From contig JAGGXZ010000049.1 of the NCBI GenBank assembly GCA_021162805.1, forward strand, positions 1 through 37,850: a stretch of DNA of 37,850 bases, in the 5' to 3' direction. The translations under genes were made by a program, and so were the position numbers. Shown one piece after another: positions 8,083 to 37,524 of this stretch. The notes beneath the pieces are model-generated. The model was not told the origin of the DNA and did not search any database. It saw only the letters and a list, made by a program, of their open reading frames with translations. The stretch comes from Candidatus Poribacteria bacterium. Lineage in GTDB: Bacteria > Poribacteria > WGA-4E > B28-G17. The number at the start of each line of letters is the position of its first letter. Position 1 is the first letter of the stretch.

Positions 8083-9366
8083 ATGGCGACTAAGGTTATC
8101 GGAGTCGTATTGAGGCAGAGACAGTACTGGATGGGCTGGCCGGGAGCCGCCTATCCGGTTGACAGATACGAGAGGGAGTATCCCCAGCGGGCCGTCGAGC
8201 TCGGCCGCGAGGTGGGGGTGGATGTGGAGTTCGCCGACACGATATACGATGCCGAGGGGACGGAGAGGTTCCTGAAGGGGATCAAATCCAACCCTCCCGA
8301 CGGACTGCTCCTCATACCGCTTTCGATGGGGATGTGGAACCTCGTGGATGAGATCACCAAGGCCGGTCTCCCCACCGTGATCTTCGCCTCCATAGGGACG
8401 GTCTTCACCGGGCACGTCTCGGCCAGATCGCGTCAAGAGGGCGTATACTTCATCTCCTCGCTCGACTTCCAGCAGGTGAGGACGGGATTGAGGATGATCG
8501 ATACGAAGGGGAAACTCGCCGAAGAGAGGGTCCTCGTTCTCAGAGGTGATGGAATGGAACCCGTGGATTCGGTCGTCGAAAACCTCGGCATCAAAGTCAG
8601 GACGGTCGGAAGGGGGAGGGTCGTCGAAACGTACGAGAAGGTCGGCGAGACGGACGAGGTGAAGGAGATAGCGCGGTGGTATACGGACAACGCTTTGAAG
8701 ATGGTTGAGCCCACCTCCGAAGATCTCATAAAAGCGGCCAGGATGTATGTGACCTGTAGGAGGCTGCTGGACGAATATGAGGCGACGGCGATAACGATGG
8801 ACTGTCTCGGGCTTGTCGGCTCAAGGCTCATCGACACGACACCGTGCATGGCCTTCTCGAAGCTCAACGACGAGGGGACTCCGGCGGCGTGTGAGGCGGA
8901 CATGGACGCCATATTGACCATGATCCTGCTGAAACATGCCTTCGGAAAACCATCCTTCATGAACGATCCCGTCCCCGAAACCGTGAGGAACATCCTCGTG
9001 GCCGCCCACTGCACCAGCCCGACGAGGCTCGACGGATATGGGACGAAACCCGAACCCTTCATCCTGAGAAGCCACTCGGAATCGAACATCGGCGTCTCGA
9101 TGCAGGTGCTCTGGAGGGTAGGAGAGGAGATAACGCTGGCCAAGTTCCAGGGACCGAAGAGGATGATCGTCGGCTCGGGAACGGTTATCGGGAACGTGGA
9201 TACGCCCCCGGCTGGCGGTTGCAGAACGTCCGTTGAGGTGAGGATGAAGGGGATCGAGGACGTCAGGGACACCAAGGGATTCCATCAGCTTCTCTTCTAC
9301 GGCGATCACGCCAGGGAGCTGAAGGACCTCTGTCAACTGCTCAAGGTGGAGGTTACGCCGATGTAG
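8083..9366 (+). CDS. L-fucose/arabinose isomerase-like paralog 2 (complete ligand set)
   Basis: This 427-residue protein keeps all three predicted metal ligands: Glu271 (in AACEAD), Asp295 (in FMNDP) and His401 (in FHQLLFYGD). The long form of the core motif, LNDEGTPAACEADMDAILTM, and the AHCTSP segment place it with the paralogs at 17741, 34640 and 36211. The N-terminal half (about 1-205) is the more variable substrate-side domain. A GGGGGTG ribosome site sits 12 bases after the stop of paralog 1, so the two are co-transcribed. A hexose or pentose ketol-isomerase role is plausible; the sugar is not predictable. Confidence 0.85.
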   Translation: MATKVIGVVLRQRQYWMGWPGAAYPVDRYEREYPQRAVELGREVGVDVEFADTIYDAEGTERFLKGIKSNPPDGLLLIPLSMGMWNLVDEITKAGLPTVIFASIGTVFTGHVSARSRQEGVYFISSLDFQQVRTGLRMIDTKGKLAEERVLVLRGDGMEPVDSVVENLGIKVRTVGRGRVVETYEKVGETDEVKEIARWYTDNALKMVEPTSEDLIKAARMYVTCRRLLDEYEATAITMDCLGLVGSRLIDTTPCMAFSKLNDEGTPAACEADMDAILTMILLKHAFGKPSFMNDPVPETVRNILVAAHCTSPTRLDGYGTKPEPFILRSHSESNIGVSMQVLWRVGEEITLAKFQGPKRMIVGSGTVIGNVDTPPAGGCRTSVEVRMKGIEDVRDTKGFHQLLFYGDHARELKDLCQLLKVEVTPM

Positions 9367-34639: not shown

Positions 34640-36004
34640 ATGGAGCTTAAGGTGAAACCCGTTCTGACATACGGGGTCTATCAAAGAAGGGAGGCGACGA
34701 GCTGGCGGCCATGGGGAGGGATACAGACCGAGGAGGACGCCCAAGAGGAGGTTCGAAGGATAGAGGGCGAATTGGGCGATCTGGCCTCGAAGGCTTCCCT
34801 CCCGCTGAAGATGTTCCCCGTTTCACCTCTGAAATCGGCGGAAGATCTATCAGGAGTGAAGGAGGAGCTGAGCTCCTCAGACCTCACCCTGATCTACGCC
34901 GCCGGAGGGGGAGGGAACATCCTCGAGGAACTCGTCTCCTCCAGCAGATGGAGCATCATCTTCGTAAGGCACAGATCGGGTCCCCTTTACCTCTGGTATG
35001 AGATCGTTCACCCCACCTTTCTCCGCAAGCGGTCGGACGAGTTCCGCCAGCCCGGCGTGGATGTGGACGATGTGGTAGTGGATAGCTATGATGAAGTGCT
35101 GTGGAGGCTCCGTGCGCTTTACGGCCTGAAGAAGGCCCTCGGAAGCAGGATAATCTCGATAGGAAACCCGGGGGGCTGGGGGATAGGAGGCAGAGCCGTC
35201 ACCCTTGCTCAGGAGAGGTGGAGCCTGGACATAAGGACGGTCCCATACCCCGATCTGGCGAAAAGGCTCGAGAAGGCCAAAGGCGATGAGGACATCGTAA
35301 GACAGGCCCATCAACAGGCTGATGAGTATCTATCCCAAGAGGGCATCACCTTGCAAACTGACAGGAAATTCGTGGACAACGCCTTCATCCTCTATAGGGT
35401 CTTCAAGGATCTGATGGAGGAGCTTAGCTCTGAGGCCATCACCGTCGGCGGATGTATGGGGACCATACTTCCCGTGGCCCAGACCACCGCCTGTCTAACG
35501 CTCAGCCTGATAAACGACGAGGGCCAGCTCGCCTTCTGTGAGTCCGATTTCGTCGTGATCCCATCGGGGATTCTGCTGCACCACATCTCCGGGAAACCCG
35601 TCTTCCTCAACGATCCGACCTATCCTCATGACGGCGTGGTGACCCTCGCCCACTGCACGGCGCCGAGGAAGATGGACGGCAAGACTTACGAGGATGCGAA
35701 GATAATGACCCATTTCGAATCCGATTACGGCGCCACCCCTAAGGTGGAGTTCAGGAAGGGACAGGAGGTGACGGTGATCGTCCCCGATTTCGAGGAGAAG
35801 GTATGGGTCGGGTTTAAGGGGAAGATCCTGGACGCACCCCTTCTCCCGATATGCCGCTCTCAGGCGGACGTGGAGATAGAGGGGGATTGGAGGAAGCTAC
35901 TGAGGGAGATGAGGGGATTCCATTGGATGATGTGTTACGGCGATTACCTGAGGGAAACCGGATATGCCCTGAAGAAGGTGGGTATAGAGTGGGTGACCCT
36001 CTGA
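34640..36004 (+). CDS. L-fucose/arabinose isomerase-like paralog 11 (complete ligand set, divergent)
   Basis: This 454-residue protein keeps Glu301 (in AFCESD), Asp325 (FLNDP) and His428 (FHWMMCYGD). It is the most divergent of the 'NDEG' type: the TIN/TMD-Cys motif reads AITVGGCMGTILPVAQTT, the N-terminal half holds a Gly-run AAGGGGNIL instead of the usual D-G-x-L-x-x-G strand, and a GNPGGWGIGGRA loop is private to it. A distinct sugar or role is likely. AGGAGGG precedes ATG 34640. Confidence 0.82.
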   Translation: MELKVKPVLTYGVYQRREATSWRPWGGIQTEEDAQEEVRRIEGELGDLASKASLPLKMFPVSPLKSAEDLSGVKEELSSSDLTLIYAAGGGGNILEELVSSSRWSIIFVRHRSGPLYLWYEIVHPTFLRKRSDEFRQPGVDVDDVVVDSYDEVLWRLRALYGLKKALGSRIISIGNPGGWGIGGRAVTLAQERWSLDIRTVPYPDLAKRLEKAKGDEDIVRQAHQQADEYLSQEGITLQTDRKFVDNAFILYRVFKDLMEELSSEAITVGGCMGTILPVAQTTACLTLSLINDEGQLAFCESDFVVIPSGILLHHISGKPVFLNDPTYPHDGVVTLAHCTAPRKMDGKTYEDAKIMTHFESDYGATPKVEFRKGQEVTVIVPDFEEKVWVGFKGKILDAPLLPICRSQADVEIEGDWRKLLREMRGFHWMMCYGDYLRETGYALKKVGIEWVTL

Positions 36005-36039
36005 GATCGAGCTCTTCGTAAGCCGTCCACAGTTCAATT

Positions 36040-36117
36040 GTCATTTGTAGTCATTAGGTCATTCGGCTTCGCCGTCATTTAAATGACGATAAATGACGAC
36101 AGATGACAATAAATGAC
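36040..36117. repeat. Palindromic array of AATGAC units
   Basis: Four copies of GTCATT (36040, 36050, 36058, 36074) are followed by four copies of its complement, AATGAC or GATGAC (36082, 36092, 36102, 36112). The last four are spaced exactly 10 bases apart. A small CGGCTTCGCCG hairpin sits in the left half, and TAGGTCATT/AATGACCTA at 36055-36063 and 36112-36120 is a perfect outer pair. It lies in the 206-base gap between paralogs 11 and 12, where I find no gene. Confidence 0.85.
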
Positions 36118-36210
36118 CTATAAGCGGCGGACTGCCGAGAGGCAGGCGGTAACTTTAGAAATCTCTACTACACTAAGCATATGAGCGAACCCATATGAGG
36201 AGGTGATCGG

Positions 36211-37524
36211 ATGAGCACGAAGCTGAGGACGATCTTCGCCGCCCCGGGCGGTAGTTGGGGAGGGCTCTTCACAGAAGAGGAAAGGGAGAGGGAGATAGAG
36301 AGGTTCAAGGGCAAATTGAACGGGATCAAACCGCTACTCCCCAACGTCGAGTTCATAGAAGAGGAGTTGAAAGGCAGGGAGGACTTCCCAAAGCTGGATG
36401 AGGATAAAGGAGAGGACGGGATACTCTTCTTCAGCCTGAGCGGTGGAGTGGATGAGCCGATCTTCAGGGCGATGGATAAAGGGCTGCCCATGATCCTCTT
36501 CGTCGAGCCATATAGCTGGCATGTCTGGTGTAGGGAAGCCCTAAAGACACACAAGAACGCCGATAAACTCATGTTGCTCTCCACCACCGATTTCGGAGAG
36601 GTGGTGGGGAAGATCAAAGTCATAGACGCGTACAAAAGGCTGAGGGAGACGAAGATACTGCTGTTCGAGGAGAGAAAGGGCGATGCGGTGAAACTGATAT
36701 ACGGCGCCGATACCATCCAGAGATACAGTATAGGCGACATGGAGGCTAAATTCGGCGTCAGGATAGAGAAAACGGATAAGCAGGTTATCCTGGATGCCTA
36801 TGAGAACGTGAACGACGAGGATGCTCGGACGGTAGCCGATTCCCTGATCGAGGAGGCCGAATGGGTGGTGGAACCGAGCAGAGAGGATATATTCAGGGCC
36901 TCCAAGCTATATCTCGCCATGAAAGGGGTGATAGAGGAGAGAGAGGCAAACGCCATAACCATAGACTGTCTGGCGATGCTCCACGTTCTGCCCACGACGC
37001 CGTGCCTCGGATTCTCACTGCTCAACGACGAGGGGATATGCGCCGCTTGTGAGGCCGATCTGAACTCTCTGATGACGATGCTGGTCTTCAGATACCTGGC
37101 AGATGTCCCCTCCTTCATCACCGATCCCGTGATAGATACGGCTGATAACAGCGTGATCCACGCACACTGCGTCGCCCCAACAAAGATGGACGGCAGAAAT
37201 CGGGAAAGGTTCATCATAAGGAATCACTCCGAATCTAGAACCGGCGTATCCCTTCAGGTCAAGATGAGCGTGAGACAGAGGGTGACTGTGGCGAAGTTCG
37301 CCGATCTGAACAGAATGCTCATCTCCACGGGCACGATAATCGGAAACCCGGATTTGGATAGGGCGTGTAGGACGAAGGTGAAGGTTCGCGTCCGAAACGC
37401 TAAGAGGATGCTCAGAACCTTCTCCGGAGGACTGCATCGGGTGCTGGCCTACGGGGATCACGTCGAGGCCATCTCAGACCTCTGCAGGCTACTCGGTATC
37501 GAAGTGGCAGAGGAGGATGAATAG
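36211..37524 (+). CDS. L-fucose/arabinose isomerase-like paralog 12 (complete ligand set)
   Basis: This 437-residue protein is of the 'NDEG-CEAD' subgroup: NAITIDCLAML, then LLNDEGICAACEADLNSLMT. Ligands are Glu281, Asp305 (FITDP) and His409 (LHRVLAYGD). The N-terminal half (KLRTIFAAPGGSWGG) resembles the 'RIYTIF' type more than its subgroup mates, so the two halves may have different histories. A strong GAGGAGGTGA precedes ATG 36211. It abuts the DUF169 gene with no gap. By motif integrity it is one of the better candidates for a working isomerase. Confidence 0.85.
   Translation: MSTKLRTIFAAPGGSWGGLFTEEEREREIERFKGKLNGIKPLLPNVEFIEEELKGREDFPKLDEDKGEDGILFFSLSGGVDEPIFRAMDKGLPMILFVEPYSWHVWCREALKTHKNADKLMLLSTTDFGEVVGKIKVIDAYKRLRETKILLFEERKGDAVKLIYGADTIQRYSIGDMEAKFGVRIEKTDKQVILDAYENVNDEDARTVADSLIEEAEWVVEPSREDIFRASKLYLAMKGVIEEREANAITIDCLAMLHVLPTTPCLGFSLLNDEGICAACEADLNSLMTMLVFRYLADVPSFITDPVIDTADNSVIHAHCVAPTKMDGRNRERFIIRNHSESRTGVSLQVKMSVRQRVTVAKFADLNRMLISTGTIIGNPDLDRACRTKVKVRVRNAKRMLRTFSGGLHRVLAYGDHVEAISDLCRLLGIEVAEEDE

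Follow-up and report, generated by a model that had tools for sequence, protein, structure and literature searches.

A gene-less palindromic array in a Poribacteria genome, probably a MITE-carried relative of hairpin elements built like rRNA intervening sequences

How did a large palindromic array come to lie between two protein genes of Candidatus Poribacteria bacterium, and does it do anything there? The window considered here is the whole 37,850-nucleotide stretch of contig JAGGXZ010000049.1 (assembly GCA_021162805.1), of which the array occupies positions 36040..36117, no strand being assigned. A first-pass annotation, made from the letters alone, had described four GTCATT units followed by four AATGAC units, the right arm repeating every 10 bases. 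Unit search, TRF and folding bear out nearly all of this. The left arm does carry four exact GTCATT units (starting at 36040, 36050, 36058, and 36074), and the right arm three exact AATGAC units (36082, 36092, and 36112); the remaining unit of this arm, at 36102-36107, reads GATGAC and has one mismatch, so that seven of the eight units are exact. The 10-base period of the right arm was recovered by TRF over 36080-36117 (3.8 copies, 82% match), unlike the left arm, whose units are spaced by 10, 8, and 16. Exact matches to the hexamer number 10 over both strands of the whole window, where shuffling gives 15.1 on average, and seven of these 10 fall within the 78 bases of the array.

The suspicion that the two arms could form a large hairpin is supported as a fold potential. 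As RNA, the stretch 36020-36140 folds at -41.0 kcal/mol, compared to a shuffled mean of -25.1 (z -4.9), and as DNA the stretch 36030-36125 reaches a z of -5.1; neither was equalled by any of 200 shuffles. Between the arms lies a cap, CGGCTTCGCCG (36064..36074, no strand), recognized from the fold and from comparison of copies. Its GGCTTCGCCG part is found again in most other copies of the array, and its GGCTTCGCCGTCATT part also occurs at one Bacteroidota and one Calditrichaceae locus (L169 and L182).

The array sits between a stop codon at 36002-36004 and an ATG at 36211, with both neighboring genes on the + strand. According to the ORF list and a Pfam search, the upstream ORF (34640..36004, +, 454 aa) has no Pfam match at E 0.001, and the downstream one (36211..37524, +, 437 aa) has a weak match to AraA_central (PF24856; 21.2 bits, cut-off 24 bits). 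By eye the two ORFs resemble tandem paralogues with similar motifs, the arabinose-isomerase-like match being confined to the second. Within 35900-36300, Rfam gave a chance-level match alone (mir-4529, E 0.3, 19.7 bits versus a gathering score of 88) and no rRNA match, this copy lying between two protein ORFs. A defense system was also considered as context, and PADLOC returned no match.

The first-pass annotation had proposed searching the genome for the same arrangement, reasoning that an element unique in the genome and lacking conservation would hardly have a functional or mobile role. The element turns out to be neither unique in this genome (4.35 Mb in 232 contigs) nor confined to it. Searching it for the palindrome pattern gives 58 matches in the forward and 57 in the reverse direction, versus none for the reversed-pattern control, and BLAST with window positions 36000-36140 finds 42 places, the best of which share 36022-36132 (BLAST query 23-133, no strand), a stretch running from GCCGTCC through the array to AAGCGGCGGACTG. 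Examination of 66 stretches leaves at least 63 distinct array places with at least four exact units each. Conservation is another matter: many copies exist in this genome and in other bacteria, but the array was found in none of 57 relatives (one of the same family, the others of the same class), either by BLAST or by the 10-base-period pattern. Some copies of this genome are themselves composite. At L064, L066, L067, L076, L082, L084, L085, and L092 an AACGTT-type array is nested inside the GTCATT hairpin, and in copies that retain the left part, two copies of TCGGCTTCGCCGTCATTA enclose the nested array, making hairpins within hairpins.

How were so many copies spread? Much of the array copy number in this genome is explained by a MITE, a short carrier with terminal inverted repeats (TIRs) roughly 26 bases long, which duplicates 8 bp of its target and has no transposase inside. 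Its TIR, CGCTCWTATTNNCNNTGAGTGTAGYA, has 96 + 82 matches in the genome and none in the control. In 12 of 23 TIR pairs the flanking octamers are alike in at least six of eight positions, seven of them exactly, compared to 2.8% for mispaired octamers, so the family displays both the terminal inverted repeats and the target-site duplication of a MITE. A TIR lies near the array on one or both sides in at least 37 of the 63 places; by the same test none is seen in the other 26, which include some decayed MITEs, the window copy among them. The suggestion that the array is a mobile intergenic repeat has thus been borne out for a multi-copy family, mostly MITE-carried and with target duplications. A search for a full-length partner with a transposase showed no longer TIR pair, either in 101 of the 178 TIR places (by eye) or within 420 bases, in contigs that are fragmented.

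The window copy itself is a decayed MITE, because it has a right-end remnant, a truncated left end, and no duplication. At its left end (36011..36025, +), comparison with other copies shows that GCTCTT is kept and that most of the sequence before GCCGTCC is missing. At the right (36164..36187, - strand), a TIR remnant is recognizable against the TIR family (CTACTACACTAAGCATATGAGCG vs. GCTACACTCAGCGATAATATGAGCG). Neither an intact left TIR nor a target duplication was seen, and this copy failed the TIR test. The carrier also varies in what it holds. Several TIR-bearing copies contain no GTCATT unit, and in L267, L268, L269, and L270 the hairpin enclosed by the same terminal repeats is of GTCCGC or AACGTT type, the GTCATT array being absent. 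At L042-L044, L046, L049, L051, and L061 a GGCGAAAGATTTTTCGCC palindrome splits the left end of the MITE, and several copies share this variant.

The carrier is not the array, however, and a probable relative of the array is found at a single locus elsewhere in the same genome. A profile search finds one match to PF05635, at C15:28466-28780, outside the window. PF05635 is the four-helix bundle (4HB) family named “23S rRNA-intervening sequence protein,” and for PF05635/TIGR02436 proteins neither a function nor a catalytic site is known. The gene is preceded by GTCATT/GTCATC units and followed by AATGAC units; it lies between GTCATTTGTAGTCATTTGTGGTCATTTATAGTCATC and AATGACTACAAATGACGATCAATGACTACAAATGACCATAAATGAC, the latter overlapping the end of the ORF. 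This fuller form of the element consists of a GTCATT arm, a 4HB gene, and an AATGAC arm, and it occurs once in the genome (contig C15, locus L259, about 8410-8859). A PF05635/TIGR02436 ORF between inverted repeats, as in an intervening sequence (IVS), is what is found at this locus, and the window copy corresponds to the arms without the gene. The protein matches PF05635 at E 4.8e-29, TIGR02436 at E 9e-29, and PDB 2gsc at E 6.8e-7, and it has a weak match to the PHROG of Avd at E 1.3e-4; judged by these scores, it is homologous to the S23 protein of rRNA IVSs and weakly to Avd. PF05635 was present in all 15 genomes searched, which is no evidence by itself because 14 of them had been chosen for their arrays.

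The same arrangement recurs in other phyla. A scan of named genomes with AATGACNANNAATGACNANNAATGAC, a single spelling of the unit, gave at least 118 stretches, whose titles include Bacteroidota (many Dyadobacter, Spirosoma, Prolixibacteraceae), Melioribacteraceae, Calditrichaceae, cyanobacteria, and others. Many of the listed arrays have an opposed GTCATT arm, and some have a GCTTCGC cap. Among the 118 listed arrays with full flanks, 58 have two or more GTCATT units at a distance of up to 200 nt on the palindromic side, and two have them on the wrong side; a few, such as one in Streptomyces, resemble plain tandem repeats. Most of these arrays are gene-less, with 110 of the 118 having no 4HB gene within 300 nt, while in all seven of the listed stretches that hold any 4HB gene, one lies at most 215 nt from the array. 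Unbiased clustering of ORFs up to 1.5 kb from arrays also brought up 4HB genes, in five loci, alongside common large families. In Bacteroidota the array pattern is present in 5 of 296 genomes, four of which have a GTCATT-type 4HB, one of the four (G060) being the search center, picked for its arrays, and two (G187 and G365) owing some or all of their array matches to the arms of the 4HB gene itself; the exception, G287, has arrays and only distant 4HBs. No clean empty site emerged among the loci compared. The syntenic pairs L187/L222, L175/L220, and L199/L226 each have one array-less partner, and they are too diverged to fix exact ends and a duplication; for the array itself neither a target duplication nor a clean empty site was found. 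A truncated 4HB reading frame at L165:13-288 continues into the array, as if a former element had been broken.

Are such arms peculiar to GTCATT? Across many genomes, 4HB genes are flanked by inverted arms of short repeats whose spelling varies from locus to locus (e.g., GGTGAAC, GGTTGAT, GTTCCAGT, GGGGCAG). When arms are called wherever the two flanks share inverted 9-mers covering 18 nt or more, 47 of 88 4HB loci have them. Among 173 mock genes placed 750 nt away, 7 reach this mark, as do 6.1% of 7656 pairs of flanks taken from different loci; related sequences in this survey are not independent (88 of 89 loci entered it, one not being placeable). The remaining 41 loci fall below the threshold, and the three sources contribute similarly (18/30, 17/30, and 12/28). 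A clear repeat period is seen in 42 of 174 flanks, mainly 7, 8, or their multiples, and periods of 10 and 20 belong to GTCATT-type arms. In open-access PMC literature we found no statement linking 4HB genes to flanking repeats; such a link may have been published elsewhere.

The spelling of the arms follows the protein. With the 4HB protein of this genome as query, 142 of 296 Bacteroidota genomes have a match, and among 30 Bacteroidota loci chosen for their likeness to it, all 12 homologues with 53% identity or more have both arms (GTCATT left and AATGAC right), versus 1 of the 18 with 51% or less. Left and right were counted on the contig, a palindromic arrangement reading the same on both strands. 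Many of the other Bacteroidota loci carry other inverted arms, such as GTTCATT at L284 and L285, CTTGGTTAC at L287, and GGGTTCA at L291. The overlap of arm 6-mers goes from 0.006 at 20-30% protein identity to 0.017 at 40-50% and 0.12-0.13 at 50-70%, dips to 0.05 at 70-80%, and reaches 0.32 at 90-100%. When the GTCATT label is mapped onto a tree of 86 proteins, 5 changes are required, compared to 13.3 for shuffled labels, with none of 500 shuffles as low. The arm repeat, then, matches the 4HB subfamily. On the same tree, the protein of this genome falls in a group with 100/100 support and 30 rows, separate from the other 4HBs of the class to which its genome belongs; the other 29 rows come from other genomes, reached via Bacteroidota or array-bearing loci. 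This position points to transfer between phyla, in which the gene and its arms would have traveled together. Two further observations concern the sites that these genes occupy. At L229 and L235, the 4HB genes of two genomes lie, by eye, at a similar place, between subunit genes of the respiratory complex I operon. At L273, L292, L295, L296, and L297 the flanking genes can be aligned, the 4HBs are 67% vs. 33-40% identical to the protein of this genome, and the arms differ, as if one site had received or swapped elements.

One site in Dyadobacter allows arms to be compared at a fixed place. The 4HB stretch that precedes prfB in Dyadobacter sp. CY323 (L143) served as query, and its flanks were found in all 41 congeners. 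In the best 30 of these 41 genomes by BLAST, a choice that favors 4HB carriers, the gene is present at the prfB site in 16 and absent in 14; among the 16 copies, one is frame-shifted and others are shortened. This single site hosts several arm types, GTCATT (L330-L334), GTTCGG (L340, L347), and mainly GTCAGG-type (e.g., L335, L343, L351, L355), and in each type the right arm matches the left, both arms differing in step between species. Own arm pairs have a mean RNA duplex energy of -76.8 kcal/mol, versus -67.4 for permuted pairs (permutation p 0.0016); such energies are confounded by arm length, and the permutation of pairings alone was used. The own right arm is the best RNA partner in none of 15 loci, because arm lengths differ. 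The 4HB-less loci hold other sequence in place of the gene, some of it other palindromes, hence no clean junction at this site. At L336, L338, L339, L345, L346, and L356 the gene-less site often has another palindrome, of GAGCGGAGCCGAAG or GAGCGGAGTCGAAG type.

In our judgment the window array probably belongs, without the gene, to a kind of IVS-like hairpin element whose 4HB protein would recognize its own arm repeat, and it was spread here by the MITE. By this mechanism the 4HB protein would bind its own arm repeat, most likely as RNA or as a single-strand hairpin, and the hairpin would be the end or the recognition signal of the element. If transcribed, the hairpin might serve as an RNase III-type processing stem, by analogy with rRNA IVSs, to which these intergenic elements as a whole would be similar in build. 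Gene-less hairpins would then be by-products or passengers. For its flanking genes the window array probably does nothing specific, a passenger being the simplest reading.

A broader reading is attractive and is offered tentatively, its chances being somewhat short of even. Stand-alone 4HB genes (S23/IVP, TIGR02436), which are widespread, may supply the protein component of many intergenic hairpin elements that together form one large class, each subfamily recognizing its own arm repeat and the arms changing along with the protein as it diverges. Gene-less hairpins of the same spelling would spread through the genome as dependants, and the window array would be one of these, introduced by way of a Bacteroidota-type element before a MITE took it up. 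PF05635/TIGR02436 genes are common in environmental bacteria, the 142 of 296 Bacteroidota genomes coming from one query alone. If the rule linking subfamily to repeat is true, it would become possible to predict cognate sites, to group rRNA intervening sequences with intergenic elements in a broader class, and to account for part of the dispersed short palindromes of such genomes. Several observations weigh against our preferred reading: the 110 of 118 arrays with no 4HB gene within 300 nt, the TIR-bearing MITE copies that contain no GTCATT unit, the 41 of 88 4HB loci below the arm threshold, the 15 Dyadobacter loci in none of which the own right arm is the best partner, the arrays of G287 with their distant 4HBs, and the failure to find a target duplication or clean empty site for the array itself. 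The match between arm spelling and gene could also stem from plain co-inheritance rather than from recognition, and the movement of the MITE explains most copies in this genome and needs no 4HB protein.

The last of these points leads to the strongest competitor, which we hold to be unlikely while giving it real weight. The array might be no more than the inner part of a TIR element moved by an unseen transposase, its likeness to 4HB arms being historical and functionless. The TIR matches with their empty control, the target duplications, and the TIRs near 37 of the 63 arrays all agree with this. Against it stand the 26 places where no TIR is detectable, even if some are decayed MITEs like the window copy, the MITEs that bear other hairpins and no GTCATT unit, and the recurrence of the same arm, cap, and orientation in other phyla and around 4HB genes.

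Retro-mobility, in which a reverse transcriptase acting in trans would make the copies with the 4HB protein as an Avd-like helper, strikes us as improbable. The weak PHROG match to Avd speaks for it, and so does the single RVT_1 match in this genome, which lies within a 962-aa open frame (C224:66181-66792). Yet among 14 genomes, all with arrays or GTCATT-type 4HBs, nine have an RVT_1 match and five do not, including G060 with its 40 array matches, so the copies do not in general require such an enzyme. It is quite improbable, too, that the array acts as a terminator, as the first-pass annotation had ventured, or as an mRNA-stabilizing hairpin for the upstream gene. It lies 36 bases past the stop codon and folds strongly, which would suit such a role, but no terminator- or promoter-like site was found in 35950-36260, the array lacks the G+C-rich stem followed by a T run of an intrinsic terminator, and it was found in none of the 57 relatives. 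Very little speaks for a helically phased protein-binding array beyond the right-arm period of 10, which had been equated with one turn of the helix. That equation is not general, given the 10, 8, and 16 steps of the left arm and the units of related arms, mostly 7 or 8 bases long, 10 being a property of this array family. Movement by a RAYT (Y1 transposase), as for REP elements, can practically be dismissed: the principle, a gene between inverted repeats amid many gene-less ones, is the same in PMC3733652, but the one Y1_Tnp match in this genome (62 profile positions) lies in a 1869-base locus without GTCATT or AATGAC.

Where does our preferred reading, a gene-less IVS-like relative carried by a MITE, place the array among known systems? 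Short size, TIRs, 8-bp target duplications, and the absence of an internal transposase are those of a MITE, but they belong to the carrier and not to the array. The short tandemly repeated repetitive sequences (STRR) of cyanobacteria, which are intergenic short tandem repeats, bear a likeness to the arrays. In REP/RAYT systems (PMC3733652), a gene is flanked by inverted palindromic repeats and gene-less copies are dispersed, much as here; the arrays differ in having no Y1 transposase, no such gene flanked by the repeat being found, and in that the protein is a four-helix bundle. PF05635 proteins turn up in other settings as well, with 18 genes reported in cas loci (PMC3936711) and the family termed Avd-like in PMC10053308, Avd being the accessory protein of diversity-generating retroelements. 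The relation of the 4HB protein to Avd is weak at the sequence level, and 5 of 14 genomes here have no reverse transcriptase, unlike those retroelements.

The closest parallel is with rRNA intervening sequences, which have been known for decades. For Coxiella burnetii, PMC4990558 describes a stem of terminal inverted repeats whose loop holds an S23p/PF05635 ORF, immediately preceded by tandem heptamers (GACAGAT), and places such IVSs within rRNA genes, from which they are excised by RNase III; for CPR bacteria, PMC11270868 reports PF05635 ORFs in insertions of 16S and 23S rRNA genes, along with ORF-less insertions. The likeness lies in an S23-family ORF framed by inverted repeats, tandem repeats near the ORF, and ORF-less forms. 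The elements described here differ in being intergenic, between protein genes, in having arms of short tandem repeats that vary by subfamily, and in the dispersal of gene-less hairpins through the genome. Being built like an IVS but lying outside rRNA, they are therefore not members of the rRNA IVS family.
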